A stretch of DNA of 21,734 nucleotides, from positions 1-21,734 of IMG/VR virus record IMGVR_UViG_3300024359_000426; one strand, 5' to 3'. Below the pieces are notes generated by a model. That model was given only the letters and a program-made list of their open reading frames with translations, made no database searches and was not told where the DNA came from. This DNA is from a virus. Shown piece after piece: positions 1 to 21,734 of this stretch. Numbering within the stretch: position 1 is the first letter of the stretch; each line of letters begins with the position of its first letter. Made by a program: the position numbers and the translations under genes.

Positions 1-1040
1 CATTGTAATAGTTCTTTGAAAGAGCTAATACTTAATAAATTAAATGCAGCCATGCATGTAACACCTGCTCCGTTTGTATTGTCGAGAAAGTATTCTATGT
101 TTGTTTTCCATAGTTCATAATCCATTCCGTATCTTACATAGTCATTTTTATCACCGCTAGCTTCTGCACTAGTAAACAATACAAAATCTTTAATACACTT
201 ACCGTCTTCTAACTGTTTAATTTTTGCAGTAAACTCTTTCCATATATCTCCTGGTGGACATCCATTACTGTTAATAGCAAATGATAAATTTGGATTTGGA
301 TTCTCTAATAGGAAGTCAATAACTTTCATTGTGTCTTTTATTAATAACGGCTCACCGCCTGTAATACGAAACGTGTGCATGTGTTTGTATGCTTCAGGAA
401 ACCATTCCCAAAATGCATCAATGTATGGATTATGTTCACGTTGCGGTATGTGTTCTTCTGTGTGCTTGGATAAGTTAAACTTCATGTCTTCTAATATGTA
501 TGGCCCGTGTTGTTTAAGTTCCTGATGCCACTGACTACTGTATGCTGGTCCACAATATGCACATTTAAAATTACATGTTCGTCCAAAACTTACTTCAACA
601 TACGTAGGGAATATATCTTCGTCACCTACTAGTTGTGCAATCTTATCGTGATGCTTAAAGCTATACGAGTCTAAACTTTTAAATACTCTGTCGCTTGTTT
701 CACCGTTGTCTTCCACTCGCCAACAAAAGTCACACTCTGCAGGACGCTGACCGTTTAACATTGCTTTGCGTTGTTCTTTTTTAAATTTTGTATTATGCAA
801 TGCACTAGGATTATTTTTAAGTTCATCTAATGGAATCTTGTGTGCAACTGGATGATGACAACTGTGCGTTGTGCCGTTACCCAAGTGCATAGTAACCTGT
901 GTCCATTTAGCCAAACAGAATCCAGGCCCGGTACTATTAAGCATAGACTTCATTGCTTGTTGATTCTTGCCGTTGGCATCGTGGCCTTTGGTTACAGGAT
1001 TAACTTCCCATTCAAAATCGTTTATTTGTTTATTAGTCAT
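1..1040 (-). CDS. Radical SAM protein with extra N-terminal cysteines (SPASM/twitch-like), 3' end cut by window edge
   Basis: I translated this frame from the minus strand: 346 codons are open from the ATG at 1040 down to base 1, so the C-terminus lies outside the window. The radical SAM 4Fe-4S motif CNFKCAYC is at residues 156-163 (C156, C160, C163), preceded by the beta-strand VEVSFGRT. The SAM-binding GGEP motif is at residues 228-231 (FRITGGEPLL). N-terminal to the core are C42, C61 (SCHHP), C103 and C106 (CDFCWR), an arrangement that in SPASM/twitch-type enzymes can bind an auxiliary cluster. Radical SAM enzymes cleave S-adenosylmethionine to a 5'-deoxyadenosyl radical; this subgroup often acts on peptides or sugars, but the substrate here is unknown. 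The start overlaps the upstream stop as TAATG and I see no good Shine-Dalgarno, so translation is probably coupled to the AcpS-like gene. The family is secure, the reaction is not. Confidence 0.92.
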   Translation of the reverse strand, partial: MTNKQINDFEWEVNPVTKGHDANGKNQQAMKSMLNSTGPGFCLAKWTQVTMHLGNGTTHSCHHPVAHKIPLDELKNNPSALHNTKFKKEQRKAMLNGQRPAECDFCWRVEDNGETSDRVFKSLDSYSFKHHDKIAQLVGDEDIFPTYVEVSFGRTCNFKCAYCGPAYSSQWHQELKQHGPYILEDMKFNLSKHTEEHIPQREHNPYIDAFWEWFPEAYKHMHTFRITGGEPLLIKDTMKVIDFLLENPNPNLSFAINSNGCPPGDIWKEFTAKIKQLEDGKCIKDFVLFTSAEASGDKNDYVRYGMDYELWKTNIEYFLDNTNGAGVTCMAAFNLLSISSFKELLQ

Positions 1041-1348
1041 TAATTTTTTAATACCATAGCAACTGCATATTCTTTTTCATCAGATACACTAAGGTTCCAT
1101 GTGCCTTCTATATCAGTAATTACTATAGGTTGCTTTCCGTTCTTTCCGTATGAGAATTGTTTAGCATCTGTAATGCCGCTTGCCTTGATTGAAGCTTCCT
1201 TAACTGCCCAACACTTAGATATGTATTCTGGCGTAAGTTCTTTTTGTTTTTCTATATCTGTTAGAAACTGATCAGTAAATCGTGTTCCATATTTGTCAAA
1301 TATTTTTCTTATGCGATTAATAGATACTATGTCTACACCTATGTTCAT
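1040..1348 (-). CDS. acpS: AcpS-like holo-acyl-carrier-protein synthase (4'-phosphopantetheinyl transferase)
   Basis: This 102-residue protein has the two signature blocks of AcpS. The N-terminal GVDIVSINRI (D6) matches the GxDI motif whose Asp binds magnesium. AVKEASIKA (K50, E51, K55) matches the helix whose Glu is the second metal ligand. A C-terminal strand SVSDEKEYAVAMV (from about residue 87) matches the family's last motif, in which E. coli also has a DE pair. AcpS enzymes move 4'-phosphopantetheine from coenzyme A to a serine of an acyl carrier protein. Bacterial AcpS is usually about 120-126 residues; this one looks shortened between the GK(Q)P strand and the final motif. The ATG at 1348 follows the neighbouring stop by one base, and the ribosome-binding site is weak. 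No acyl carrier protein gene is visible in the window, so the target is probably host-encoded or lies elsewhere in the phage. A misassigned small phage protein is unlikely given both motifs. Confidence 0.87.
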   Translation of the reverse strand: MNIGVDIVSINRIRKIFDKYGTRFTDQFLTDIEKQKELTPEYISKCWAVKEASIKASGITDAKQFSYGKNGKQPIVITDIEGTWNLSVSDEKEYAVAMVLKN

Positions 1349-1349
1349 A

Positions 1350-2333
1350 TTATTCCAATGTATCTTCTACTTGTTCTTCTCTAATCTGAGCACCCATTCT
1401 ACTAGGGTTAACATATACTTTCTTAAAGAATCTAGAACCTTCTTTTCCTAAGTCAGCAATTTCTAAATCTAACTTAGAACGTATTTCATACCCAAGCCTA
1501 TTACTTTCTTTTTGTAGTGTGTCGTAGTTCCATTTCATTCCTGTGCGTGGGCAAAGCTGATCATTATTTGCCTCAAAGTTAGGTAATACATTTTCTTTAT
1601 AATATTTTGTAAGCCAATCAAAGTCTCGAACATTTTTCCAGTCCCAACTTTCTCTGTCTATGTTTGTCATGTGGCATCCAAGTCTTGCACCGTATATTGC
1701 CCACAATCCATTTTCACTATCGTCACCAACAGTCATCCATGTTAACAAACGTTGGTAGTTTTTCTTATGAATACTTTTAATTTCTGATGGGTCTACAACA
1801 TCGCCGTCTATTAGTCCCATCTTAACTCCTTCACGGAAACCTGCACGCCAGGCTTGTAACGGACTAGCATTGTTCATTACATCACAGTATATGTTATTCA
1901 TTTGTACATAATTAATATTCCAACAAAAATCTACTTGAGCTCGCTTGTCACCCTCTGGTGCATTTTCATGTGTTTGCATTCCATATACTACTTCCTTTGG
2001 CCAACACTTGATACCGCCGTTGCCGTATACTAATCCGTTTACTGTATTCTTTCCTGCCCAACTAATAACATCTGTTTTAGCTATCTTACTCATGTCTACT
2101 TCAACACCAAAGAAATCTTCTTTAACAATGTTATCTGCATCAATAGTAATAAATCTATCTGTTTCGGCTAAGTCTGCTGCTGCTTTATGTGCCGCGTCAC
2201 TACCAAATACTCCATGACTACGCTTTGCCCATGGCGCCTTATTGATTAGGTCATTATAGTTTTCATCTGCATTTGGTTCATCGTAGCTAATGAATACTAT
2301 ATCAAATTCATTAATGCTTTGCATTTTGCTCAT
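1350..2333 (-). CDS. Predicted GT-A-fold glycosyltransferase (marine phage type)
   Basis: The 327-residue protein opens with FDIVFISYDEPNADENY (residues 10-26), a beta-strand and loop typical of nucleotide-sugar-binding GT-A enzymes. A strand ending in FITIDADNIV (61-70) follows, where D65-A-D67 fits the metal-binding DxD motif. The GNGGIKCWP segment (104-112) resembles the acceptor-side loop seen in this phage family. I recall near-identical N-termini in marine T4-like phages annotated as glycosyltransferases. No signal peptide or membrane segment is evident. The ATG at 2333 lies inside the end of the upstream gene (23-base overlap), but a strong AGGAG (2340-2344) sits six bases before it, which supports this start. 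Donor and acceptor sugars are unknown; clustering with structural genes suggests virion or surface glycan decoration (inference). DNA-base glucosylation is an alternative I cannot exclude. Confidence 0.77.
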   Translation of the reverse strand: MSKMQSINEFDIVFISYDEPNADENYNDLINKAPWAKRSHGVFGSDAAHKAAADLAETDRFITIDADNIVKEDFFGVEVDMSKIAKTDVISWAGKNTVNGLVYGNGGIKCWPKEVVYGMQTHENAPEGDKRAQVDFCWNINYVQMNNIYCDVMNNASPLQAWRAGFREGVKMGLIDGDVVDPSEIKSIHKKNYQRLLTWMTVGDDSENGLWAIYGARLGCHMTNIDRESWDWKNVRDFDWLTKYYKENVLPNFEANNDQLCPRTGMKWNYDTLQKESNRLGYEIRSKLDLEIADLGKEGSRFFKKVYVNPSRMGAQIREEQVEDTLE

Positions 2334-3300
2334 GTATATCTCCTGTGTTTATTGTTACGTAATTATTTTTATAAATTAATATTGGCTTTGCTGGCCAATC
2401 AAATGTTGTTTCTGTACTTGATTGTTTTTGCACTAACACCTCAGTTGGTATTTCAAATGCACCAACAAAGTTATCAGCATCTGCATCGCATACGATAATC
2501 TTTAATCTAGTTTGTCCCTTAAAGTAATACATCTGTGATTCATTTAACTTACTTGTCACGTACATAGTATTGTCTACTACGTTAATATTTATGTCTGCTT
2601 CATCTTCTGTTTTTGATACCTGCATAATTTTATCAATTCCAACTCTATTAGTAGATCTAGTTGCTGACAGTGACCATCCATAATCATTAAACACTTGTTT
2701 GGTATATAAACTAATGTTGTTCCAGTCTACCTTTTTAGTAATGTTTGTACCTAATTCAAACACTTGTATTCCTTCTTTAAATAATGGTAATGGATCTACT
2801 TTAATAGTACTGATAAGATAATCTGGATCATTCTTTTTTGTAAGAAATATATCAAGTAAGTTTGTTTCGTTAGTTGATATTTCTGTTATGTCTCCTAGGT
2901 TCTTAGAACTTTTAATTTTATTTGTGTTTGCTTCTATTAATAATTTACTACTATTGTAAAATGCCTTTACAAATATATCTGCATCGTCTGGATATATATC
3001 TTGTTGTATAGGCAATAACTTATTATTCTTTGACTCTATTACTAATGTTGTACTACGTAAATCAATATCCCATTGCTCTCGTAATACATCCCATATCATT
3101 CCATATTTTTTTAAACTAGCCTTGCCTTGTGTTATTTTTTTACACACAGGATTTTTACTTACTATTTGTTGTAGGCCATCAGCTTCTACCATATCAAACG
3201 GAGAGCTATTAATCTGATATATCTTGCCAAGTGAATCAAACACTATGTAGTAAGAACGTTCAGCGTGTTGTTGTGGCTGCGTAGGTGTCTCGGTGTCCAT
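2311..3300 (-). CDS. Conserved-looking protein of unknown function inside the glycosyltransferase cluster
   Basis: I do not recognise this 329-residue protein. It begins with a short polar, Gln-rich stretch (TETPTQPQQHAE), then YYIVFDSLGKIYQI (residues 17-30), an alternating strand pattern. Much of the chain reads as beta-rich, with segments such as TTLVIE, LLIEAN and RLKIIVCDADADNFVGAF (about residues 265-282). It has no signal peptide, membrane helix, DxD-plus-GT fold pattern or nucleotide-binding loop that I can name. Its start overlaps the upstream gene by 41 bases and its end overlaps the downstream glycosyltransferase by 23, both unusually long overlaps. The only upstream purine-rich signal is AGAAGA about ten bases before the ATG, so reinitiation is likely. 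A beta-rich fold and the position next to virion genes would suit a structural or scaffold role, but this is a guess; the ORF itself is well supported by length and tiling. Confidence 0.82.
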   Translation of the reverse strand: MDTETPTQPQQHAERSYYIVFDSLGKIYQINSSPFDMVEADGLQQIVSKNPVCKKITQGKASLKKYGMIWDVLREQWDIDLRSTTLVIESKNNKLLPIQQDIYPDDADIFVKAFYNSSKLLIEANTNKIKSSKNLGDITEISTNETNLLDIFLTKKNDPDYLISTIKVDPLPLFKEGIQVFELGTNITKKVDWNNISLYTKQVFNDYGWSLSATRSTNRVGIDKIMQVSKTEDEADININVVDNTMYVTSKLNESQMYYFKGQTRLKIIVCDADADNFVGAFEIPTEVLVQKQSSTETTFDWPAKPILIYKNNYVTINTGDIHEQNAKH

Positions 3301-4114
3301 TAAAAATATCTTCTGTTAGAAACTCTTGTTCTCCGTAATACAGATTAGTAGCAACTGCAAAGTTTTGAATCTTAACTTTAGCCCTGTCACTATTCCATAT
3401 GTTTAGTCTATCTGTCCATTTTTCCCATTGACCAATAACACCGTCTGTTAATGTTACTGGCATATTAATTGTGTTTATAATATCATTATGTAACATTGGT
3501 TCTTCAAATAATATTATTGTGTTTACTAAACTATGAATTAAATCACTGTTATAAAATTCAGGTCTGTGAGCTTCATTAAAATAATGAATATGAACGTCTC
3601 TCCAGTTTTGCATGAACACATCTGCTAATTTGAAATAAGCAAGAGATAAGTCTGTGTCTTGTTTAAAATAAAACATATGAGAATATACTGGATTAATTTT
3701 ATATTCTTCTTGGAATATAGCAGTGTGTTTATTTGTTAGCTGTGTTCCTTTGAAGTCATATGCTTGATTAAAAAAATAAATATCATAATGATCTTCTAAG
3801 TATTCCCACACACTATCATGATTTTCTTTTACAAGACTTGCACAGTCAATAACAATATTATGTTTGTATGGAGTTGACCAATACAACTGCCAGTCATTAA
3901 CTCTAGTAATTTCGTTAAAGCCAAATGATAATTCAACCAAATGATTAAATACGTCTCTGTGGTGATGTGGTACACGATCTATATAATTAGTTACTAAAGT
4001 AACACTAGCATCTTTATTATGTATCTTAATACTGTATGCAAGAGCAGTTGCTTGCTCATATTCAAAATCTTGTATTGCTAGAATTACATAGCCTCTATCT
4101 TCTTTAATCTGCAT
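3260..4114 (-). CDS. Glycosyltransferase-like protein with degenerate DxD motif
   Basis: With the ATG at 4114 the product is 284 residues. It opens with DRGYVILAIQDFEYEQATALAYSI, followed by DASVTLVTNYID, the alternating strand-helix start of GT8-like nucleotide-sugar enzymes. At residues 83-95, PYKHNIVIDCASLV lines up with SPFEKTLLLDIDYIV of the upstream protein. The second Asp of the metal-binding DxD is replaced (D90-C91-A92). The two proteins also share the order of N-terminal strands, so I infer an old duplication. Loss of DxD suggests a metal-independent, altered or inactive enzyme, perhaps a partner of its neighbour. A TTG one codon earlier (4117) is a possible start, but the GGAGG at 4121-4125 lies six bases from the ATG and only three from the TTG. 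The gene overlaps its upstream neighbour by 11 bases and its downstream neighbour by 41. Confidence 0.72.
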   Translation of the reverse strand: MQIKEDRGYVILAIQDFEYEQATALAYSIKIHNKDASVTLVTNYIDRVPHHHRDVFNHLVELSFGFNEITRVNDWQLYWSTPYKHNIVIDCASLVKENHDSVWEYLEDHYDIYFFNQAYDFKGTQLTNKHTAIFQEEYKINPVYSHMFYFKQDTDLSLAYFKLADVFMQNWRDVHIHYFNEAHRPEFYNSDLIHSLVNTIILFEEPMLHNDIINTINMPVTLTDGVIGQWEKWTDRLNIWNSDRAKVKIQNFAVATNLYYGEQEFLTEDIFNGHRDTYAATTTR

Positions 4115-5006
4115 CAAACGCCTCCATTAGATTTGGTATAACTCTGCCCAATGCTCTCTTGTTCATTACGTGTATATCTTGATTGTGCGTATTCACTAAT
4201 ATATTCTTCCATACTTCTTTTTGATCGTGTGCAATAATAATCCATTCGTTTGTATTTTTTGTTTCTACTATGTCATCTTTTTGACTTACATTAACTAGTG
4301 CAGTATTATCAAAGTTGCCTAAGTACTCCTGTGTGTCTTGCATGCCAGACAATATATGTACTGCTATGCTAACACAATAGTCTGTTCTAAATAATTTATT
4401 TGGAAAATTATACAAGTACTGATAAAAATCATAGTTGTCAGCAACATGAGCCCATGTATCAAAAAACATTTTACTAAAGTCGCTACGGTCAAAATATACA
4501 ACTGTACTCCACCACATTTTAATTCCTGCGTCATATAAGAAGCGTTCTTCGTTTGCTGGTAGTTCATTTCTAATTGTAGTTGCATTGTCAAACATAGATA
4601 CTGGGTAATCACTATCAAAATATTTTAACAGTACGTCTGTCTTTACAATATAATCAATATCAAGTAATAATGTTTTTTCAAATGGACTATACTCATATAT
4701 TTTATGTTTGTTGCTATTATTAAATTGTGCTTTAAATTCTGTCCAAGGGCTATCAAAATGTCGTCTATGATTTGATCGCATTTCGTCGTTAGTGATTATA
4801 ATATAATCAAATACTTCGCTGACTAATTGTTTAGGTTGACTTTCCTCTAGCCAGCTCGCTGAGCCTTCATCAGTGATCAAACACACTGGTAGTTTTAGAT
4901 TTTGTTTAGCATACTTACCAGCAGCAAGCGCCATCTTTACGTAGTCTAGTTGATCATTGTTGTAAGCAAAAAAGCAAATGCCTCTTGGTTCTAGAACTTC
5001 TTCCAT
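4104..5006 (-). CDS. Predicted GT-A-type glycosyltransferase (GT8-like) with intact DxD
   Basis: The 300-residue protein begins with GICFFAYNNDQLDYVKMALAAG and then LPVCLITDEGS (residues 40-49), the usual first strands of a nucleotide-sugar-binding fold. EYSPFEKTLLLDIDYIVKTD (105-124) carries D116-I-D118, the metal-binding DxD. Downstream, DAGIKMWWSTVVYFDRS (about 159-175) resembles the acceptor/donor loop of related phage glycosyltransferases, in which a small gap in the fold precedes an F/YFD strand. It has no signal peptide or membrane segment, so it acts in the cytoplasm. The start overlaps the upstream stop as TAATG and only a weak GGA precedes it, so translation is probably coupled. The next gene appears to be a diverged copy lacking the DxD. 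Transfer of a sugar to a virion protein or glycan is plausible; the substrate is unknown. Confidence 0.8.
   Translation of the reverse strand: MEEVLEPRGICFFAYNNDQLDYVKMALAAGKYAKQNLKLPVCLITDEGSASWLEESQPKQLVSEVFDYIIITNDEMRSNHRRHFDSPWTEFKAQFNNSNKHKIYEYSPFEKTLLLDIDYIVKTDVLLKYFDSDYPVSMFDNATTIRNELPANEERFLYDAGIKMWWSTVVYFDRSDFSKMFFDTWAHVADNYDFYQYLYNFPNKLFRTDYCVSIAVHILSGMQDTQEYLGNFDNTALVNVSQKDDIVETKNTNEWIIIAHDQKEVWKNILVNTHNQDIHVMNKRALGRVIPNLMEAFDAD
4121..4125 (-). promoter_or_regulatory. Ribosome binding site that decides the start of the degenerate GT-like gene
   Basis: On the minus strand this reads GGAGG, a strong Shine-Dalgarno. Its distance is six bases to the ATG at 4114 but only three to the TTG at 4117, which favours the ATG. 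It lies inside the last codons of the upstream glycosyltransferase gene. Confidence 0.75.
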
Positions 5007-5353
5007 TACCAGTCCATTATTTTCTTAATGTTACGAGCTTTCTTTATTTTTTCATTTTCAATATCAAATTCTGTAGTAGCACTAGTGTATGCATCAACAA
5101 GTTTTTCTAATAATTCTTTTAAGTTTTTTACTGTGATAGGATTATTTTTGCTATCAATTAAAATAGAACTCTTATGACCTAAGTCTATTAATGTTTTTGT
5201 GAATGCTATTGTTTCGTGATTAGCAATAAATACACCACCTAAGTGATGTACAATTTGTAGTTGTGCAACTCTATTTCTAATATTTCTTTTCTGATTATTG
5301 ATCGTTAAAGCATAATTACTAAAGTCTAATGCTTTCTCGAGTCTTTCGTCCAT
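5006..5353 (-). CDS. Small conserved phage protein, function unknown
   Basis: This 115-residue, highly charged protein begins MDERLEKALDFSNYALTINNQ. From memory this N-terminus is shared by small uncharacterised proteins of T4-like marine phages. The middle has the strand pattern GGVFIANHETIAF (residues 39-51) and SSILIDSKNNPITV (62-75). The C-terminal 40 residues look helical (LKELLEKLVDAY, then a Lys-rich tail ending in KKIMDW), possibly a coiled coil. The ATG at 5353 is supported by AAAGGAG at 5360-5366, six bases upstream. It is the first gene of the accessory cassette and follows a short gap holding a promoter-like element and an AT-only palindrome. Its stop overlaps the next start as TAATG. 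No enzymatic motif is visible; a small chaperone or regulator of the following glycosyltransferase is only a guess. Confidence 0.82.
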   Translation of the reverse strand: MDERLEKALDFSNYALTINNQKRNIRNRVAQLQIVHHLGGVFIANHETIAFTKTLIDLGHKSSILIDSKNNPITVKNLKELLEKLVDAYTSATTEFDIENEKIKKARNIKKIMDW

Positions 5354-8263: not shown

Positions 8264-11200
8264 TTATAATTCAATTCCCTTGCCAAACGTTTGCAACTCT
8301 TGTGCCTGTGTTGACCCTGGACTATTTAAAATTGTATCACTTGATTTATTATATTGATAATCGTTTGCATCTACAATACCTGTATATTCATTTACTGTTC
8401 CTACATCTCTATGAACTCTTTCTACTTGTTTTATATTTGCAAACGTAAGTTGTGTTTTGTCAACTTGTGTTATTGAATCTCCAACACTTGCTAGAACTTT
8501 AAATGTTCCTGCTAGTTCTCGTTTTGTAATTCCCAATGTAGTACTGTCTACTACACTATATTCTATTAGCTCACCGTTTACATAAGCAATACCAACATTA
8601 TCAAATGCTGTTGTACTTGCTACAGTTATAGTTGTGCTATTCAATGTTAAAGGAGTAGTTGCAATAGTTGTTTCCTTTGCTTCTGTTAATGCGTAAGCAC
8701 TAACAGTTCCATTAACATTGCGTATGTGTGCAAATGTTCTTGAAGTGCTTGCATGTGTACTACCCGAAGCATTTGTCTGAACATTTATTCTTAATAATTC
8801 TAGTGGTCTAACTTCTACTAAACTATTTCTGTTGTGTCCTTCATTTGTATAATTAAAATATGCTGGATCAACTTTTGGAGATAATTTTGCAACTACACTA
8901 TCATTGTTTAGTGGAGCAGTAACAAATGTTATTACTTGTCCTGCAATGCTCCAACTATCTGTTGATTGCAGTATATTGTTTATTGTAATGTCTATTTCAT
9001 ATGTTACTCCTACATTAACATCTTGAGTTAATGTAAATGTATTTGCTGTTCCATCGCCTGTGAATGTTTGTGTTATAGGATTACTAATTTCTGTATTGCC
9101 AAACCCAATGCCACTAACAGTATCTGTACTAGCATGGTCTGTAGTGAACCCACCACCATCGTATGTTGTAGCAGCAGTTTCATTCCATTCTGATTCTCCT
9201 TGTATTGTTACTGAAGGATAACCAAACGCAGTATCAATATCAAATGGCTTCATAATTATTTTTGTAGTTGGAGATTCTGTTAACGTTAATCCAACTTCAT
9301 CCATAGTAGTATTTCTCATAACCACAGTACTTGCTTTAGTATGGTAAGGTTTAATTTCTTGTATGTATCCTAGTACATTATTAATTTTGTTTCTTGTATA
9401 TTTTCTAGTAACTGTATCAAGTGTATTAGTAAACTCTAATTTGATATATGTTGTTTTTCTAATCCAATTTGTTTGTTCAAACGTACTTAGTATGTAATGT
9501 ATTACACTAAAGAAGAATGTATTCATTTTATCTGTGTTATATGAAACAAAGATGTCTTTGTGCAATGCTTCTATAATTATTTCCCAATATCCTGCAATGT
9601 CTGCCGCATCATATAATCCCGAATCAAAGGACATAGAATCCCATCCACCAGTGGTAGTTAATAATTTTTCATCAAATGCTATTGTGCCATTTTTCTTAAA
9701 CACAAGTTCCCAAAGATTTGTATCAGTGTTATATGCATATGTTTCACTTGTATTAAGTTGCAATGCATTATTAAATACTGTCATTTTAACTACATGATGA
9801 TAATCTAAATCAATTGAATCTAAATCCGAATACGCAGTAATAAATCTTGTATGATTTAATGTACCCGAGTATGATGCAGATTTATAATCTGTATATTTCC
9901 ATAAGTTAGATGGGAAATTGTGTGCAACAAGTGTATCGTCCCATTTACCTAAGTACTCGCCTATTAAGTTAATGTTCTTTAATAACATATTAATTGTAAT
10001 GATTGCATTTCTTCTTGCGTCAGTTATATCATTGAACCAGCTTTGTCCAATAGATAAATCATCTCCGTACTTGTTAAATTTATGTAATGTCTGATATGGA
10101 ATTTTATTTAAGTTTGCATCTCTGCCACCAAAGTTCATTTTCATTCCATTTATATAGTATTCAGGAATAGTATCACTGTCTTGTGCTATTACTGTCCACT
10201 CGTTATGAGATTTAAATTTGTCTCCAGCTTTATTAATTTGTAGCACAGTATTTTTATCTTCAACATAATAGTTAATATTGTCTATAATAAATTCTTTATC
10301 ACTTATAACTGCAAACCAGCTAACGCCACTTCCAGTTGGGTCTTTGATAATATTTTCAACATCATATGCTGACAACGATCTCTCATCTGAGATAGTTGTT
10401 TTGTTTTTAACCCAGTAATAATAAACAGTATCATATGAAGAAGTTTGTGTATTCCACTCTTCAATTGTTGTATAATAATATTGTGTTTCTTTAGCTACTT
10501 GGTCGTATATAGAATATGCTACACCTGTAGCAACTGTACCAAATATCTCTTTGCCAAGTTTAACTGCTTCTGCATAATCATCTGGAGCAACATTTGATTT
10601 AATCCATTCCCATACTACTATTTCACTTCCAGGATACAACTGACCCCACAATGCAGATTTATAAAATGAGTCACCCTGGTCGTAATCGTAATATCTTACT
10701 TTACTTATATCCCACCATCGTGTTCCTACTTGCTCAGTACCCCACGCAGCATCTTTGTCTAATAATTGTGTAGTGTCTGTTGAGGTATTATAAATTGCGT
10801 TATCATTAAAATTATTATAGTCTATATTTTTCTGTGCAATACCTGGTAATATTTTTCTCATTGGGTCCCATACTTCTAACTGAACCTTAGCTTTGTTTTC
10901 TGCATGATTATAAATTACTATACTATCAATATCTTTATTTGTTGGCCTTTGTAGTGTCTGTCTTACTAATCCCTTACCTACTTCGCCTGTTTCTGTTAGT
11001 ATCTTCCAATCATACACATACGTTCCTTGTACACCGTTTTTATCATTAACAAATAACATTGTATTAATTGGTAAGTTCCAATGTGCTGTTAGTGCTGCCT
11101 CATCTACTTGTGGTGTATTTAAAAATCTTGTTGTTACTAGAGGCATTACTGAAACTGCATTACCGCATGCTTCAATATATTCATCTATATAAAATACTTT

Positions 11201-14200
11201 ATTAGTTGATCCTAATTTTGTTACTTTGTGTATACCATCAATGGTTGGTGTTGTAGTTGTGTTCAATAGCTGTACATAATCGCCAACACTTAACCCATGC
11301 GGTTCGTTTGTTGTAACCTCAGCATCATTTCCGTCCTTACTAGATCGCCCTGCACATATTCCACAGTCTGAACCATCGGAACTTTTAGTATATAATGGTG
11401 TATCTATTATTTGTGTAACTGTTCCTGTGCCCGATACTGTTGTACCAGTGGCTGTAAATCTAGTTAATACTGTATTAACAGATGCGCCTAGTGATGTAAA
11501 GTCTGTAGTCCCTACAGAACTGATTCTATAATCTTTGCCTATTACTAATGGAAGTGACAATCCTGTGTCAGGGTCTACATGTGCTACACTAGATTTACGT
11601 AATGTTGTTTGTAATACATTCCATCCATAAAATTTTGTTGTAACTGTTTCTCTCGATTCAATTTCAAAATCACTATCATCTGTTATTTGTATATTGTAAA
11701 TTGCAGGATCTTCGCTATTAATTGAAGTAGTTCCAAACTGTGCTGGATTCCAAACGTTTGCAACATTAACATCACTTGACGTAATTGTTCCTGTTTGTAA
11801 ACCTGCTATACCGTTAAAATCTGTGTCGCCCATTGCTAAACTAGAACCTGTTGATGTTATTCGGATTGCTTGCCCAAATACTGAAATTGTTACCTCAGTA
11901 ATACCGTTATTAACAAGTTCGGTTGCTATAGCATTCTTGGCACCTGTTGCGTCCATTGTTGTAGGAGTAGATACTCCTACAGAAGTATATGTTCCTGGTG
12001 TAGCTGTATCACCGGGTAATCCCAAGTAAGTTAAAATATTAGTAGAGCCACCTAGCACTAAGGTTTTGTTGTTACTAGTGTTATTTGTTTTTGTAAGAAC
12101 TAAATTTCCGCTACTTTCTGATGCAGTAATACTTACTAGGTTTGTAGCACTAGTGTTATTAATTTGTGTTACAACATCTGCTACTGTTAATGGCTGTGGT
12201 ACTAAGGCGTTTGATGTTTCTTGTCCTTCTACTAAGTTACCAGTTGTTGGATATCCCAAATCTGCGTTGTCTGGATTGTCTTTTAATGTAATACTGTTTT
12301 CTGGATCTGCGTCTTGATATACAAATTCCATACTTTGTGTAACAATTCCATTAACAATAGAAGTTGTATTAACTGTTAAGCCAGATATATTATAAGCATC
12401 AATGTGACTCTTAATTTCACTAGCATTCATTGTTAATGGTGTGTGTGCTAAAGTAACAACAATATTAGATGTTCCTGTTCCTGGTGCAGATGTAAAAGTA
12501 ACTATTTGTCCAGTCTGAGAATAGTCAGCTGGCTCGGCTTGAGCTACACCGTCTACATCAATACCGTTAATAAAAAATCCACCCGATGTTAATGCTTGGC
12601 TTATAGTAAATGATGTTGTAGTTGTGTCACCATCAAAGCTCTCAGTTATCTCGCCTGGAGTTGTATCAAAGTCTATTGGATATTCTGTATCAGTTGTAAC
12701 TGTGTTGTTGTTAGCATCTAGTGTTGTGTTTCTAACAACAAAAGTAATATTTTTATTAGTAACTGGATTAAGTTCTGCTGGTCCACTGTCTGCAATTAGT
12801 CTTGCAGGACCTGTAACTGATGTAACATATTCGTCTTTGTCAAATATAATTGACTCTCCGTTTATTGTTAATGATTCTGAATCAGTAAATGCAGTAAAAC
12901 TTGATCCTGTTGCTACTATGTCTGGGTATACTGTGACTTGATTTTGTAATTCAAATTCCGGCATCCCAGCAAGGTTAACCTTTGTTCCATATGGGAATGT
13001 TGGAGATGTTGTTAGTCCAGTTTCTTGTATAATATCTGTTACTTCTGTAAGCCCAGTAAAGTCAACACTACATTGCCATAGTTCGCCTTGGTATCTAACT
13101 TTATCACCTTTCTTATAACTTGTTGTATTATTCCACGTTGGTATATTTGCATATTCGGCTGTGCTATCAAACACGTCACTTAAATAACTTGAATTTAGTA
13201 CTTGGTAGTCTGATTCATTTCTCAATAACTCACCACCAGTAAGTATGTCGTTATCTGCATAAGCATAATCAACTGTATCAAATGTAATTGATTTATTGTT
13301 GACAATTTTATTGTCTGTTGCTATAATTACATTAGCCTCTGTATTAGAAGTATTTAATGATATAGTTTGAGGAGATGAAATAATGTCACCTGACACAATT
13401 TCAATTTCAAGTGGGTCTTCAAAGTCGTCGTTGCCTAATGTAGACTGTCTAAACATGTATTCTTCAAATGCAGAAACTGTTGTTTCTCCGTTGTCGAGTA
13501 TGTTGGATTTCCCCACATGTTCAACTGCACCACGTGTACCTTTTTCTTTTATTACACCCTGATGATAGTTAGTAAGTACGTTTTCGTTAATACCAAGGTT
13601 GCTAAGAAGTTGTCCTTCTGCATTTCCTATTGTTAAATCTTTTGCTTTTGAAAACGATTTGTTAAAATGGTCTACATCAGTTCTATATAAATTGTCAATA
13701 CTTTCTACTGCACTATCAAAGTTTTGGACAATGTAATCGCCCATGATTAAATAGCCAGGAGCTTTCTTTTCACCTGTCCAGTTTTGAGTTCGTTGTCCAG
13801 TAACTAATAAACGCACTGGCCCATTATTCTTAGTGTCATCAAAAATAGTGACTCCAAGTTTTGTTTTGTTTTCAAAAATTATAATATGTTCATAATCTAA
13901 AATAGCACTAGTAATACTTCCAATAAAACTTTTGTCTTTTGTTTCAACTGAAACTGTTCCATCAATACGTTTAATACCTAAATCACTGTTTTCTATTTTC
14001 TTACCATTTTGTAATAAAATATTATTACTGTTATATTCTAATTGATTATATTCATACACATGCCCAGTGTCTGGTGTGAATGATATTTCTCTACCAATTT
14101 GTAAAATATATCCTTCACCCTCTTTGGCAGTTAATGCCCAACCAACAAAGTCAGTAGCAGAACTATCGCCATCGTATGTAAGTTTATATCCAGACGTTTC

Positions 14201-17200: not shown

Positions 17201-19312
17201 ATCTTGAAATATAATTTGAGATGATGTTCCAACCTTGTATAATTCGTTTGGTTGCGATAATGCAAAATTTGATCCATCTTTGCTATTGATTGTAATAGCC
17301 GTTTTATCATTATCGTTGTGGATTATATATTCTTGTGTAGGGCGCCAGTTGTTATACCCAAGTGGAATAACTAAATCTGTATCTGTTGATTCTACGTTGT
17401 ATTGTTTGTGTTCTAATGCGCCAGATAATTCTCCTGCTGGTACGTATACTGTTTTTAGTACATCAGCCTGTTTAAACAAATTATAGCCTTTTTGGTCTTT
17501 TGAAAATGTTCCTCTAGAGTTTTCTGCATTTGCATACGTAGTATAATAATTACTTGTGATTATAAAATTTTCAAATTCATATTCAGCACCCTTGGGTGAA
17601 TCTTTATAACATAGTGCAAATCCTAATTCAGGATCATTTGCACCAGTTCCTTCTTTAAATCCAAATATTCTATCACCAACAAATCTTTTTCCATTAATAC
17701 TTTCTAGTGGTGTGCCTTGTGTATTATAAAATCTATATAATGGATATTGATTAGTTTTTGTTTTTTGTTGTGCAAGTTCCAACTTACCACTTGTAAAATA
17801 TCCATCTGCTTCAACCCATAAACTGTTTGTACTTTCAAGTACAGAGAATGTATCACCTTCAATTAATGAACTAGTTGATCCTCCTACTGTATGAATTAAA
17901 TCATCAGTGTCGTCTATGTAAACATAAGTTTTGCCTGTAGTGGTTGGCTCGTTGCCAGTTGTTACTGCTTCATCAATTACACCCTTGTATTCTGCACCAG
18001 TAACATTCTCAGATTGATTCCATAAATGTAATCCTGGATTATATTCTATAATAGGCCTGTGTGCTCTTCTTTTAATATCTCTTATTTCACTAAAATCATA
18101 ATATGGCATTAGTATTGCTAACTTGCTAATAGTACTTCTATTAACCCAATGGTTACTTCTGCTCCAAGCTGTTTGCGGTGGATCATTTTTAGCAATAGTA
18201 ATATAATCTTTTAATGGCATCACTGGATGTCCACTATCATACATTAAATTGTTATTAGGTGTAATATAAGACCCAGTTACTTTTGCTTTTTCATCATCAG
18301 TGCCTTCGGTTAATACTACTTCTGGATTTGATGCTATTGTGTACTGAACAGAGTATGGCTCTACAAGGTCTGTTCCTGTTCCCCATCCTGTTGTAAATTT
18401 TATTAAAGTATATCCAGTAAGTGACTCAGAATGTGTATCTTTATCAGTAAATTTAAAACCATCAAACACAGGCAGTCTGTCAACATTTTGATTATATGCT
18501 TGTACAACTTCTGCTGGTGTTCTGCCCGCTACCCAATAAGCACTGTTTGTATTTGGTTCAACACGTAATACTGTATTGTTTACATATGTACCATCTGTGT
18601 TCTCGGAATGCTTGACTGTATTGTTGTATACTCTATTTCCACTTGCATCTAGGTATTCATATAACTTAAAATTGTTTATTGTGCCTGCTATAATAAATGT
18701 TTTATTTAATACATCTGTATGCCAACCTGCTCCTTTAAACTTAATAAGCATCTGGTTTTCAACTGTGAATTCATTGTTATCATCAAGTATAGTTGGCCAT
18801 CCATTAATTTCTATATCTGTTATTGGATTCTTAATTGCTCCTGTCCATATACTTTCGTATATAGGTAATTCCTCTACCCAATGATAGTTTATATAATTTA
18901 CAAACTTATCAAAATCAATTGGCGGACTATAACTATATCTACTAGACGAATATGCTGAATTATAATTATATGTACTAAAATTATTATCAATAGCATGTGC
19001 AATATCATCAAATGCCAGCATTTTAGTTATGTCTTTATTTTTATTATAAGAAACAATAGCAGGTGTTAATTCATTTTCAGTTCTAATATTTTTACGAAAT
19101 TTAGGTTCTATATATGTGTCGGTTGCTTTTGCAACTAATCCATCTCTGCTTCCAACAAATCCATTAATATCTTCTAACGGTCCTTTTGAAACCATTTGAT
19201 CCATTGTACTGTCTAACCAACTTTTGTTTAGTTCGGTTTGAAATACACTTGGTAAGAATTTACTAGTTTTTATATTGTTAACTGGATTTTGTCCTGATTT
19301 CTTTTTAGCCAT
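8264..19312 (-). CDS. Giant modular virion/baseplate structural protein (3,682 residues) in the gene 7 position
   Basis: A single uninterrupted frame follows gp6, overlapping its stop as TAATG, with GCAGGA before the ATG. The N-terminus (GFVGSRDG, PPIDFDKFVNYINYHW at about 130-145, WSRSNHW near 380, RPIIEYNPGLHLWN) and later blocks (YARYYWPF and FGDWGPVEFNW at about 1338-1395, EIKPYHTK near 3320) are what I recall from large structural proteins of marine T4-like phages. Between them lie beta-rich modules: a GxxYxI...DxTxLG repeat at 1021-1068 and 2589-2635, a TWNNTTSYKKGDKVRYQGELW segment (2057-2087) like a CBM5/12 fold, EPHGLSVGDYV (about 2664-2714) like E1-FCCH modules, and two GDG...ING repeats (2226-2289, 3417-3478). 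T4 gp7 has 1,032 residues, so this is over three times longer. Identity with gp7 is positional inference. There are no membrane segments and few cysteines. Confidence 0.85.
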   Translation of the reverse strand: MAKKKSGQNPVNNIKTSKFLPSVFQTELNKSWLDSTMDQMVSKGPLEDINGFVGSRDGLVAKATDTYIEPKFRKNIRTENELTPAIVSYNKNKDITKMLAFDDIAHAIDNNFSTYNYNSAYSSSRYSYSPPIDFDKFVNYINYHWVEELPIYESIWTGAIKNPITDIEINGWPTILDDNNEFTVENQMLIKFKGAGWHTDVLNKTFIIAGTINNFKLYEYLDASGNRVYNNTVKHSENTDGTYVNNTVLRVEPNTNSAYWVAGRTPAEVVQAYNQNVDRLPVFDGFKFTDKDTHSESLTGYTLIKFTTGWGTGTDLVEPYSVQYTIASNPEVVLTEGTDDEKAKVTGSYITPNNNLMYDSGHPVMPLKDYITIAKNDPPQTAWSRSNHWVNRSTISKLAILMPYYDFSEIRDIKRRAHRPIIEYNPGLHLWNQSENVTGAEYKGVIDEAVTTGNEPTTTGKTYVYIDDTDDLIHTVGGSTSSLIEGDTFSVLESTNSLWVEADGYFTSGKLELAQQKTKTNQYPLYRFYNTQGTPLESINGKRFVGDRIFGFKEGTGANDPELGFALCYKDSPKGAEYEFENFIITSNYYTTYANAENSRGTFSKDQKGYNLFKQADVLKTVYVPAGELSGALEHKQYNVESTDTDLVIPLGYNNWRPTQEYIIHNDNDKTAITINSKDGSNFALSQPNELYKVGTSSQIIFQDLTDSTITIMSHGVNIETNTIPEITITRPGTNIAIQTSSASNNKHFSILVNGAVLQSFIVTDKWDDSFYNVTLNGEAIAYSKITTTATSITIDKSIFASDDLVDIYWRNNDSLNETNNTSMPDVHKHNSENKAITTFTISETMDHWKSKLNATPGFDGKTYGENNFASIPRTSCYGGTIFMHEDTSIMHDITYADNELSITGALLEQAKEFIAFRTRVAAQARRVYATTGVLNVQDLANKAVNEVTRNQRDHGLYKESNMLSIDMENTQKWILEEDNISEFSKTFQTRFIFNGDTNIRDHVYVYLTEAIKEVTEYSNLIPGETYTIVTPGNVDWTLLGSANNNAGTVFVATNRTSQSGASGTAKQDGQQRRSLVKDTEYTFIGDTVTLTLDYAAFDSLKTQPQVEVFYIDMDDDYFIPPSMVKLGLGYGTQPQVNDNILYTHDGTQFDVTNSELLNVNAPNFDPVSAVIYEIEKRIYAGLVKQDKMYNDIVIEKYKSHIDYLPSQHKPTWYSLSDYNNYLEKYYSNWATENNVTSLTLSNYYDAADPFTWNYSSIIIADGFLSSLPGHWKGAYTYLFGTCTPHITPWHMLGYAFKPTWWDTHYSWKAGAKRTALLDALKKGIISEPGKPVTQSVKYARYYWPFSTTNKCPVTDTGTLELPHLVLGIPTDIEKAKEFVFGDWGPVEFNWRSTAIGQSIMVDGVLKLHPAKAWTDFFQPGIFRKNNTGIHNINQYNDMLPGNNICYYKTPGKVYDSVIDSITVKNSPTTLESDGYFTMLDDDYSTFGKAVYSLNSDNKITALSMTDRGLSFTSQHIISYVGTTGLAANIDLDARLKSIPFVANGISQSQYNYMIRNSFGVELDDLYNTLATKLQFKLSGFSNKHLLNISSETSLTGDFVLGDDDFDIKMYKGATTDLVAASTVTITKTSSGYTVAGVSNNAREFKFYEPNVVSSTDYTTRNIASQTVRRYNKFVTTPSVVEYDSEFQRLQDVYNFIRGYWKWMETSGYKLTYDGDSSATDFVGWALTAKEGEGYILQIGREISFTPDTGHVYEYNQLEYNSNNILLQNGKKIENSDLGIKRIDGTVSVETKDKSFIGSITSAILDYEHIIIFENKTKLGVTIFDDTKNNGPVRLLVTGQRTQNWTGEKKAPGYLIMGDYIVQNFDSAVESIDNLYRTDVDHFNKSFSKAKDLTIGNAEGQLLSNLGINENVLTNYHQGVIKEKGTRGAVEHVGKSNILDNGETTVSAFEEYMFRQSTLGNDDFEDPLEIEIVSGDIISSPQTISLNTSNTEANVIIATDNKIVNNKSITFDTVDYAYADNDILTGGELLRNESDYQVLNSSYLSDVFDSTAEYANIPTWNNTTSYKKGDKVRYQGELWQCSVDFTGLTEVTDIIQETGLTTSPTFPYGTKVNLAGMPEFELQNQVTVYPDIVATGSSFTAFTDSESLTINGESIIFDKDEYVTSVTGPARLIADSGPAELNPVTNKNITFVVRNTTLDANNNTVTTDTEYPIDFDTTPGEITESFDGDTTTTSFTISQALTSGGFFINGIDVDGVAQAEPADYSQTGQIVTFTSAPGTGTSNIVVTLAHTPLTMNASEIKSHIDAYNISGLTVNTTSIVNGIVTQSMEFVYQDADPENSITLKDNPDNADLGYPTTGNLVEGQETSNALVPQPLTVADVVTQINNTSATNLVSITASESSGNLVLTKTNNTSNNKTLVLGGSTNILTYLGLPGDTATPGTYTSVGVSTPTTMDATGAKNAIATELVNNGITEVTISVFGQAIRITSTGSSLAMGDTDFNGIAGLQTGTITSSDVNVANVWNPAQFGTTSINSEDPAIYNIQITDDSDFEIESRETVTTKFYGWNVLQTTLRKSSVAHVDPDTGLSLPLVIGKDYRISSVGTTDFTSLGASVNTVLTRFTATGTTVSGTGTVTQIIDTPLYTKSSDGSDCGICAGRSSKDGNDAEVTTNEPHGLSVGDYVQLLNTTTTPTIDGIHKVTKLGSTNKVFYIDEYIEACGNAVSVMPLVTTRFLNTPQVDEAALTAHWNLPINTMLFVNDKNGVQGTYVYDWKILTETGEVGKGLVRQTLQRPTNKDIDSIVIYNHAENKAKVQLEVWDPMRKILPGIAQKNIDYNNFNDNAIYNTSTDTTQLLDKDAAWGTEQVGTRWWDISKVRYYDYDQGDSFYKSALWGQLYPGSEIVVWEWIKSNVAPDDYAEAVKLGKEIFGTVATGVAYSIYDQVAKETQYYYTTIEEWNTQTSSYDTVYYYWVKNKTTISDERSLSAYDVENIIKDPTGSGVSWFAVISDKEFIIDNINYYVEDKNTVLQINKAGDKFKSHNEWTVIAQDSDTIPEYYINGMKMNFGGRDANLNKIPYQTLHKFNKYGDDLSIGQSWFNDITDARRNAIITINMLLKNINLIGEYLGKWDDTLVAHNFPSNLWKYTDYKSASYSGTLNHTRFITAYSDLDSIDLDYHHVVKMTVFNNALQLNTSETYAYNTDTNLWELVFKKNGTIAFDEKLLTTTGGWDSMSFDSGLYDAADIAGYWEIIIEALHKDIFVSYNTDKMNTFFFSVIHYILSTFEQTNWIRKTTYIKLEFTNTLDTVTRKYTRNKINNVLGYIQEIKPYHTKASTVVMRNTTMDEVGLTLTESPTTKIIMKPFDIDTAFGYPSVTIQGESEWNETAATTYDGGGFTTDHASTDTVSGIGFGNTEISNPITQTFTGDGTANTFTLTQDVNVGVTYEIDITINNILQSTDSWSIAGQVITFVTAPLNNDSVVAKLSPKVDPAYFNYTNEGHNRNSLVEVRPLELLRINVQTNASGSTHASTSRTFAHIRNVNGTVSAYALTEAKETTIATTPLTLNSTTITVASTTAFDNVGIAYVNGELIEYSVVDSTTLGITKRELAGTFKVLASVGDSITQVDKTQLTFANIKQVERVHRDVGTVNEYTGIVDANDYQYNKSSDTILNSPGSTQAQELQTFGKGIEL
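8879..9064 (-). repeat. Structural module B, copy 2, in the giant protein (residues 3417-3478)
   Basis: The segment FTGDGTANTFTLTQ, then ITINNILQ, then IAGQVITFVTAPLNNDSVV matches the copy at residues 2226-2289 in order and spacing. It lies after the EIKPYHTK block, in the C-terminal region that ends the giant protein. Confidence 0.65.
11408..11548 (-). repeat. Structural module A, copy 2, in the giant protein (residues 2589-2635)
   Basis: The encoded segment runs from LVIGKDYRISSVGTTDFTSLG through RFTATGTTVSG to TGTVTQI and lines up over its whole length with the segment at residues 1021-1068. It is directly followed by a CGIC-containing loop and the E1-FCCH-like module. Confidence 0.7.
12446..12637 (-). 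repeat. Structural module B, copy 1, in the giant protein (residues 2226-2289)
   Basis: The segment has FDGDTTTTSFTISQ, then an ING(x)DVDGV turn, then QTGQIVTFTSAPGTGTSNIVV. The order F-x-GDG/T, S/T-F-T-[IL]-x-Q, v-x-x-[IV]-NG/NN, G-Q-[IV]-x-TF-x-x-AP is repeated near the C-terminus. It is typical of short beta-sandwich units in phage fibre-like proteins. Confidence 0.65.
16109..16252 (-). repeat. Structural module A, copy 1, in the giant protein (residues 1021-1068)
   Basis: The encoded segment runs from LIPGETYTIV through VDWTLLGSANNNAGTVFVAT to GASGTAKQ. The pattern GxxYxI, then G-x-x-D-[WF]-T-x-LG, then a turn and a final Gly/Thr-rich strand, is repeated at residues 2589-2635. It is a known kind of small beta module in phage tail proteins. 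The match is at protein level; the DNA copies are well diverged. Confidence 0.7.
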
Positions 19313-21734
19313 TAGTATGTTCCTGCTTTAATATTTTCGTCTGTTATATTTGTAATAATATCTATATCATTAACATTTATATCTGGTATAATAAGTTCGT
19401 CTGTATTAGGTTTGTATTCAAACATATCTCCAAATACACTGCCCGAACTTTGAGGTACAATAACAAAACTACTTAACAGTCCTGGAAGTTGTTTATGTAC
19501 GTAAGCTGCTAACTCTGTGAAGTAAAAAGTTTCACCAAAGTCCCAATTACTAGAATCAAAGAAATCATCTATTGCAGTAACTACTTTTGATTTTAAATCA
19601 CTATCAGTAATAGTTGCACCAAATAATTTAATTATTCTAAATCTTGCTCTAAGATGTGGTTCAGCTAAACTACCAAATAGAGGTTTATATTTTACTGGTT
19701 TATATACAATAGTATCACTGATTGCTTTTTTATCTATTACACCACTAAATTGTGTGCCTAATTGATAACTTGTTGGTGGCAATGGTTCTTCTGCTACTGT
19801 ACCCTTAAGATAATTTTTATATTGTGTGTCGTATGTTTTTGATAAAGCAAACACATCAATAATATTTGTAAAACTAGGATCAACTACTTGATTATCAGCT
19901 GCTATATGTTCCCATTCAAATTTTAAATTGTCTACTCCATTGTATCCATCTACTGTTGAAGAACCAATTACGTTTTTAAATACTTCTGGGTCATCTGGTC
20001 TGCTGTCAGCATTCCCATCTATTAGTGTTAATCTATAATTAGTTGAATCTGAATTCTCAAATCCATATACATAAAATTTACCTAATGATGTTAAAAAATC
20101 ACCATCGGCTCCTACTAAACTAATTATATCTCGTTTTGCTTTTTTAGTATAAGTTCCTATTTCAACTTCGTTTTGAATATTTCCTAATTTAACTGAACTG
20201 CTTGTAAAGTTAAATCTTATTGTTCTCAAATAAATGTCGTATGTTGACCCAGTAAAATTAAAATGTGCTATCCAACTTAAATCGTTATCAGAAAAAGCTA
20301 AATCGTCAAACCTAGCACTCGGATCAAAAGGACTACTTGGAGAGCTATCAATTAACCATGCTCTGTTTTTAAAATCATATTTTAAAGAAAATGTTCTTTT
20401 TGATTTTATGTATGAAATAAGTAATGCTCTTTCATCGTTTGAGAAATTTCTCGACAACGCAGGGTATATAATTTCTATAGTACTTTGATCTGGAACAGTT
20501 GCGTCTAACACAATAGAACCCGTACCATCTGCACGTTTTCCTGTAGGTTCACCTGCGTTTGTTCCTGTACCTTCAATTCCTAGTCCATGAGAGAAAGTAT
20601 CAATAACTTTTGCCCATATAAATGTATTGTCTTCTTTTCTAAATTTAATTAATGCTCCTGGTGTAAAATATTTCATATATCCAGATGCCGTGCTACCTAC
20701 TCTAGTAACTGCACTTGGTGTTCCAGACAACAAGTATCCAGTTTTAATACCACTTGCAGTTGTACTAGGACTTTGCCAAGTATATGTTGAGTTAGAAAGC
20801 ACGTTTGCATTACTGTCCATGTGACCTTCTGCATCTGCTAATGCATAAAATGAATCAGCAAAGTTTTTATAATATAAATTTACAAACTCATCATTGTGTA
20901 ATAATTCTTTAACATATTTTTCGTAAGTTATTTCTGCTGTATCTGTTGATGCAGTTGATATCTGTACTAGATTATCTTTTGCAAGTAGTGTTGCATCATT
21001 GCTTGCCATATATAAGTTACTATATGTTCCTGTAGGATCATAAAACTTTGAGTACCTGCTGTGTCCACTAAATGTTCTATTAATACTTTTTATTTTAATG
21101 ATACCACCGTTGGTAGTACCTAGCATAGTATTGTAGTCTTGGGCAGTAATCATTCTGTCTTGACTAGCATAATTTCTTGGAGCATTTTCTTTTATTTCGT
21201 CTATACTCTCATTTGAACTTGCAGTTGATACTGATTGTTTAAGTTGTAATTTAAATATGGCTGTGTATGTATTGCCATCATATCCTGTATAATTTACTTG
21301 TACTTTTTTACTTGGAATGTCGTCTGGTCTTAAAACATATGTACTGTTGACACTTGGTCTGTACCAAACTCTAACAACATCTTTTGGAATATTACCAAAT
21401 GTATCATCAGGAAATAAAATTGATATTTGATTATCTTTTCTCGTCTTTACACTGAATATATTTCTTTCACCAGTTGAAAGGTTATTGTAAATTACATTAC
21501 TGTTTACATCTGTTACTTTAGTCCAATGCTTTACAACATTTCCTGTATCGTTAATGTTTTGCACCCACACATCTGTTGTATTAATATTATCTACATCAAC
21601 GTCTAATGAAGTACTGTTAATTGGTGTACTAATAGGAAAGTCTTGATATGCAAGTGTTCCTTGTTTAACTCCAAAGAAGAATCCTGTATTAACACTATTA
21701 ATGCCTTTGCCATCTTGTTTGAAGTATATTCCAA
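19312..21734 (-). CDS. gp6-like baseplate wedge protein, 5' end outside the window
   Basis: The frame is open from the window edge (21734) to the TAA at 19312-19314, giving at least 806 residues. A GTG at 21570 is internal: the frame continues upstream through FFFGVKQGTLAYQDFP without a stop. The segment APRNYASQDRMITAQDYNTML (about 21122-21185) is the conserved core of the baseplate J / T4 gp6 family. The C-terminus (FYFTELAAYVHKQLPG, then DELIIPDINVNDIDIITNIT) matches gp6-like ends. gp6 forms dimers that build the inner ring of the contractile-tail baseplate and hold the wedges together. T4 gp6 is 660 residues, so this homologue is longer; the extra part may be the Gly/Ser-rich middle (about 20500-20850). 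The stop overlaps the start of the giant gene, as 6 precedes 7 in T4. Confidence 0.83.
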   Translation of the reverse strand, partial: GIYFKQDGKGINSVNTGFFFGVKQGTLAYQDFPISTPINSTSLDVDVDNINTTDVWVQNINDTGNVVKHWTKVTDVNSNVIYNNLSTGERNIFSVKTRKDNQISILFPDDTFGNIPKDVVRVWYRPSVNSTYVLRPDDIPSKKVQVNYTGYDGNTYTAIFKLQLKQSVSTASSNESIDEIKENAPRNYASQDRMITAQDYNTMLGTTNGGIIKIKSINRTFSGHSRYSKFYDPTGTYSNLYMASNDATLLAKDNLVQISTASTDTAEITYEKYVKELLHNDEFVNLYYKNFADSFYALADAEGHMDSNANVLSNSTYTWQSPSTTASGIKTGYLLSGTPSAVTRVGSTASGYMKYFTPGALIKFRKEDNTFIWAKVIDTFSHGLGIEGTGTNAGEPTGKRADGTGSIVLDATVPDQSTIEIIYPALSRNFSNDERALLISYIKSKRTFSLKYDFKNRAWLIDSSPSSPFDPSARFDDLAFSDNDLSWIAHFNFTGSTYDIYLRTIRFNFTSSSVKLGNIQNEVEIGTYTKKAKRDIISLVGADGDFLTSLGKFYVYGFENSDSTNYRLTLIDGNADSRPDDPEVFKNVIGSSTVDGYNGVDNLKFEWEHIAADNQVVDPSFTNIIDVFALSKTYDTQYKNYLKGTVAEEPLPPTSYQLGTQFSGVIDKKAISDTIVYKPVKYKPLFGSLAEPHLRARFRIIKLFGATITDSDLKSKVVTAIDDFFDSSNWDFGETFYFTELAAYVHKQLPGLLSSFVIVPQSSGSVFGDMFEYKPNTDELIIPDINVNDIDIITNITDENIKAGTY

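Follow-up and report, generated by a model that had tools for sequence, protein, structure and literature searches.

The window analyzed here makes up an entire IMG/VR record (21,734 bases) and is a fragment, truncated on either side. One strand carries, in order of transcription, a baseplate wedge subunit, a protein of 3,682 residues, several tail-like proteins, the genes c7, c8, c11 and c9, an AcpS-type 4'-phosphopantetheinyl transferase (AcpS) and a radical SAM protein. The AcpS gene (1040..1348, minus strand) is complete, starts with ATG and encodes 102 residues; it is the first gene of a cassette, and the window stops 1 kb beyond it. Its stop codon overlaps the start of the twitch-type radical SAM gene in the letters TAATG. 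The contig end cuts this second gene, leaving its N-terminal 346 residues (3..1040, minus strand; NF033640, 269 bits against a cut-off of 170). On the other side, about 1 base separates the end of c9 from the AcpS start. The overlap and the close spacing are as expected for genes that would be co-translated.

The upstream neighbour c9 (1350..2333, minus strand; 327 residues) is conserved, with at least 547 viral relatives, and contains a DxD-like motif, FITIDADNIV. A glycosyltransferase function was considered for c9 and rejected, as the motif was recognized by eye only and no profile match was obtained. The genes c11 (2311..3300), c8 (3260..4117) and c7 (4104..5006), all on the minus strand, are assigned to the backbone by synteny; c8 gave no family match and c11 and c7 no significant one. 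Judged by eye from the DxD-like motif LLLDIDYIV, c7 is possibly glycosyltransferase-like. Further upstream, the gp6-like baseplate wedge subunit (19312..21732, minus strand; phrog_10646, E = 4.9e-169), whose 5' end is cut by the contig end, is about 33% identical to its counterparts in the jumbo phages Salicola SCTP-2, Pseudomonas PA5oct and Agrobacterium Atu_ph07. Being on the same strand as AcpS, it bears out the statement of an earlier, sequence-only reading that AcpS is flanked by phage genes. The 3,682-residue protein is encoded by a single open reading frame (8264-19312, minus strand) and is likely a baseplate wedge protein as well. This frame comes after the gp6-like gene, and a giant gp7 is likewise placed in the phage P-HM1. 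The AcpS cassette had also been described as late, and its gene position suggests that it may be.

The sequence-only reading took the 102-residue frame for an AcpS, an identity that sequence, fold and catalytic residues all support. The match to the Pfam ACPS profile PF01648 (E = 1.3e-9; 38.5 bits, cut-off 25) is far above chance. Of the curated NCBIfam profiles, TIGR00556 was matched just over its cut-off (46.4 bits against 45.35), while the stricter equivalog cut-off of TIGR00516 was missed (47.7 bits against 59.8). A PHROGs search with the frame gave no match. The best sequence match in the PDB is the Bacillus anthracis AcpS 3hyk (E = 7.6e-9), and profile comparison with solved AcpS chains yielded E = 1e-10. 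Both metal-binding motifs are found where they had been reported, GVDI with D6 and WAVKEASIKASG with E51, as is the final, C-terminal strand LSVSDEKEYAVAMV. D6 and E51 correspond to the Mg-binding Asp near the N-terminus and to the Glu in the (F/W)AxKEAxxKA helix that are expected of the family, and align with D9 and E58 of the E. coli enzyme. When 7 phage and 4 bacterial sequences are aligned, D6, R12, K50, E51 and K55 are invariant, and S87 and S89 nearly so.

The AlphaFold model of AcpS, a monomer built from 11 sequences, has a mean pLDDT of 95.2 and adopts the AcpS alpha/beta fold. As the sequence-only reading would have it, this model superposes on solved AcpS structures: Foldseek ranked E. 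coli AcpS first in the PDB, and the best matches were all AcpS, with TM scores of 0.8-0.9. Query-normalised, the TM score is 0.90 for 1f80_C, a chain from an AcpS-ACP complex, and 0.88 for 5xu7_A. The one significant match in a viral structure library was a Megaviridae phosphopantetheinyl transferase.

The phage AcpS was also found in 8 further viral contigs (G001-G008; 77-98% identity), and a broader alignment search led to the same 8. A genome scan returned only ordinary-looking bacterial AcpS (33-42%), and two short Listeria-labelled records with a weak match (E = 0.3) were dismissed as chance or host DNA. To these nine whole records, namely the window and the eight AcpS contigs, we applied the carrier-protein profile PF00550. 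An acyl carrier protein (ACP) scored above the cut-off in six of them (G002-G006 and G008), so that ACP and a PF01648 transferase occur together in one phage contig. These are all six of the related cassette contigs that reach far enough. Three of the six are near-identical, with one and the same ACP in G002, G003 and G004, which leaves about four independent lineages; the contigs are, moreover, fragments. The ACP gene of each follows AcpS at a distance of about 7 kb downstream, is read from the same strand and comes directly after a second radical SAM gene, c16. The encoded proteins (80-81 residues) are strongly acidic, with 19-20 Asp and Glu residues against 5-7 Lys and Arg, match ACPs of known structure, among them the E. 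coli protein, and share a GLDSLDK motif with an invariant DSL serine.

PF00550 found no ACP in the window, in G001 or in G007. The contig G001 stops just past AcpS. G007, at 91 kb, carries AcpS (84% identity) among other genes, in a nucleotide-metabolism-like setting, and shows that AcpS can occur without ACP on the same fragment. By clustering, G007 also contains roughly 20 radical-SAM-type frames (L038-L042; L039 at 8401-9477, minus strand) and, by eye, an amidinotransferase-like frame along with DHFR-like and thymidylate-synthase-like genes. Neither PF00550 nor PF01648 matched in 50 c9 contigs that lack AcpS, of which 38 reach 9 kb or more beyond c9, with some of the remainder too short on that side to be informative. 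It had been noted earlier that no carrier protein is visible in the window; this is literally true, but only since the contig ends. The small acidic DSL protein that was to be looked for elsewhere in the phage is present in the six relatives, outside the window, and we infer that the phage represented by the window also carries an ACP beyond the contig end.

In the relatives, the cassette reads AcpS, twitch radical SAM, c13, a set of genes on the opposite strand (c14, c15 and, where called, c38), c12, c16 and, as the last gene, ACP; c12 encodes a small PLP-aminotransferase-like protein. Past ACP, the contigs of one group continue with a DUF6071 protein, to which G002 adds a sulfotransferase-domain gene, and those of the other group with a HAD phosphatase, to which G006 adds a nucleotidyltransferase-domain gene. 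For c14, a GHSS motif seen by eye had raised the possibility of an alpha/beta-hydrolase-type thioesterase; this candidate was rejected, as its model (pLDDT 41.6) is too poor and no meaningful PDB profile match was found. The PLP gene was likewise considered as a marker of ACP dependence, and abandoned: both ACP and AcpS are missing from 50 phage contigs that encode a related protein, and the PLP enzyme alone therefore implies no carrier pathway. This short, PLP fold-type-I-like family (L072-L151; about 250 residues, with a SLSKPFG lysine motif) occurs in viral contigs of up to 518 kb and is widespread in phages, with 105 loci and a member in Pelagibacter phage Mosig.

The backbone c7-c8-c11-c9 ahead of AcpS is widely shared. 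Among the 80 best c9 relatives, the cargo after c9 differs in most, radical SAM proteins are frequent and AcpS is present in just 6. Between the window and four relatives, the identity of the twitch radical SAM protein is 82-83%, as opposed to 28-74% for c8 and c11; such a steady value beside a varying backbone is what a cassette passing from one backbone to another would be expected to show. More generally, the variable slot after c9 (1350-5353 in the window; L152-L231) holds 1-7 radical SAM genes, often twitch-type, in many contigs of a large marine phage family, and its cargo is different in each lineage.

We consider it probable that the phage's own ACP is what AcpS primes, and that the two genes bound an exchangeable cassette, AcpS at its start and ACP at its end, in a jumbo-like marine myophage, where the cassette would occupy the variable slot for cargo behind the tail genes. 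In the proposed pathway, AcpS would take 4'-phosphopantetheine from CoA and attach it to the phage ACP at the DSL serine; the ACP would then bear the group handled by the cassette enzymes. That loading of the ACP would come first is deduced from the protein families, while the choice of partner is based on co-occurrence. The two radical SAM proteins and the PLP-like protein, encoded between AcpS and ACP, would make or modify an acyl or aminoacyl group attached to the arm of the ACP. Where this group goes is a more tentative matter. A role in a surface glycan or the virion, as suggested in the sequence-only reading, is possible, and modification of a surface is plausible given the nearby tail genes and the possibly glycosyltransferase-like genes; still, we would give somewhat less than even weight to the suggestion that the product serves to decorate a surface molecule of phage or host. 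More tentative again is the complete scheme, in which AcpS and ACP bound an exchangeable assembly line, radical SAM and PLP enzymes assemble an unusual group on the phosphopantetheine arm for transfer to a surface molecule of phage or host, and the whole is swapped between jumbo-phage backbones like cargo.

The same earlier reading had also raised an effect on lipid synthesis, for which the results give no support. Ketosynthase (PF00109) and AMP-binding (PF00501) domains gave no match in any of the nine records, all of them fragments, so that no ketosynthase or AMP-ligase was found alongside the ACP as at a type II fatty acid or polyketide locus; ordinary fatty-acid or polyketide synthesis is therefore not indicated. 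The same result counts against the proposed pathway to some extent, as no ACP-loading (AMP-binding) enzyme that would charge the ACP was found in the nine records.

Whether the carrier is that of the phage or of the host should be considered in light of these data. As a rule, bacterial AcpS enzymes work on type II ACPs, and with such broad acceptance the phage enzyme might act on the host ACP or another host carrier, keeping the infected host supplied with holo-ACP for making lipid or LPS, with the phage ACP being incidental. The G007 contig, with AcpS in its nucleotide-metabolism-like setting and no detectable ACP in 91 kb, agrees with this. We nonetheless regard it as unlikely: ACP accompanies AcpS in every cassette contig that is long enough and is absent from the 50 AcpS-less c9 contigs, an AcpS should already be present in the hosts, and no fatty-acid enzymes are found alongside. 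Of the two carriers allowed for in the sequence-only reading, the phage one is thus favored and the host one disfavored, because the relatives hold an ACP in the same cassette, about 7 kb downstream.

The lack of a loading or condensing enzyme near the ACP would also suit a regulatory or takeover device, in which the phage ACP titrates CoA-derived phosphopantetheine or the ACP-binding partners of the host rather than bearing a biosynthetic intermediate; given the conserved tie to radical SAM and PLP-like genes in one cassette, we find this very improbable. Even less credence is given to AcpS as a decaying, non-functional passenger gene of host origin. The protein does lack about 17-24 residues relative to bacterial AcpS of known structure and falls under the TIGR00516 equivalog cut-off. 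However, pairwise dN/dS among the phage copies is about 0.05-0.17, from which we conclude that the gene is under purifying selection, and the catalytic residues are invariant and the predicted fold complete. Priming of the phage's own ACP is the reading that we retain, with the partner assigned to AcpS from sequence data and to be taken as probable.

Compared with known systems, the enzyme itself is close to bacterial AcpS (B. subtilis 1f80/1f7l, E. coli 5vbx/5xu7 and B. anthracis 3hyk), with which it shares PF01648, the fold and the Asp and Glu metal ligands, at roughly 23-35% identity in fold alignments. It is a short standalone chain like the trimer-forming bacterial enzymes, here compared as a predicted monomer, and has 102 residues against about 119-126. 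Unlike them, it is encoded in a phage cassette. Our search of the literature on AcpS or phosphopantetheinyl transferases as auxiliary metabolic genes yielded no report of AcpS. The published phage ACPs that we found are, as far as the available excerpts go, mostly lone auxiliary genes or tied to host fatty-acid synthesis: roseobacter prophages carry acpP as an auxiliary metabolic gene, alone or with fabF/fabG (PMC8224337), and vibriophage R16F encodes an ACP (PMC10152775). These ACPs are phage-borne like that of the cassette, and the same excerpts mention no AcpS for them; acpP with fabF/fabG points to fatty-acid synthesis, whereas no ketosynthase was found with the AcpS cassette. The putative aminotransferase of Pelagibacter phage Mosig EXVC030M is 45.5% identical to the PLP-like protein of the cassette and also lies near tail-fibre genes, and no gene in the 24.6 kb region viewed is annotated as ACP or phosphopantetheinyl transferase.

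The closest precedent is in Prochlorococcus phages P-HM1 and P-HM2, for which Sullivan and colleagues (2010; PMC3037559) described an ACP and its synthetase. Profile search confirmed PF00550 and PF01648 in P-HM1, and relatives of both proteins were found in Prochlorococcus phage MED4-213. The transferase gene lies at 41410-41868 of NC_015280.1 in P-HM1, and its MED4-213 relative (NC_020845.1, 71060-71515; 94%) is annotated as hypothetical; PHROGs lists the family under unknown function. As in the cassette contigs, these three phages hold an ACP (T4-GC457) and a PF01648 transferase (T4-GC500) in one genome, and a phage pair of this kind is thus already known. The transferases differ, however: that of the P-HM1 type has 152 residues with the ACPS domain at residues 73-125, and tblastn from the window's AcpS did not find it. 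In P-HM1 about 22 kb separate the transferase gene from that of the ACP, and the former is surrounded by small genes of unknown function rather than being part of a radical SAM/PLP cassette. What appears to be new, within the reach of our searches, is a standalone-type AcpS bounding an exchangeable radical SAM/PLP module in a jumbo-like lineage. That AcpS and ACP bracket a swappable radical SAM module, near which no ketosynthase or AMP-ligase domain was found, suggests the existence of phages with their own carrier-protein pathway, an idea that the pairing makes testable with two small proteins. Set beside these systems, the AcpS is an ordinary enzyme, and it is its setting that is unusual and informative.
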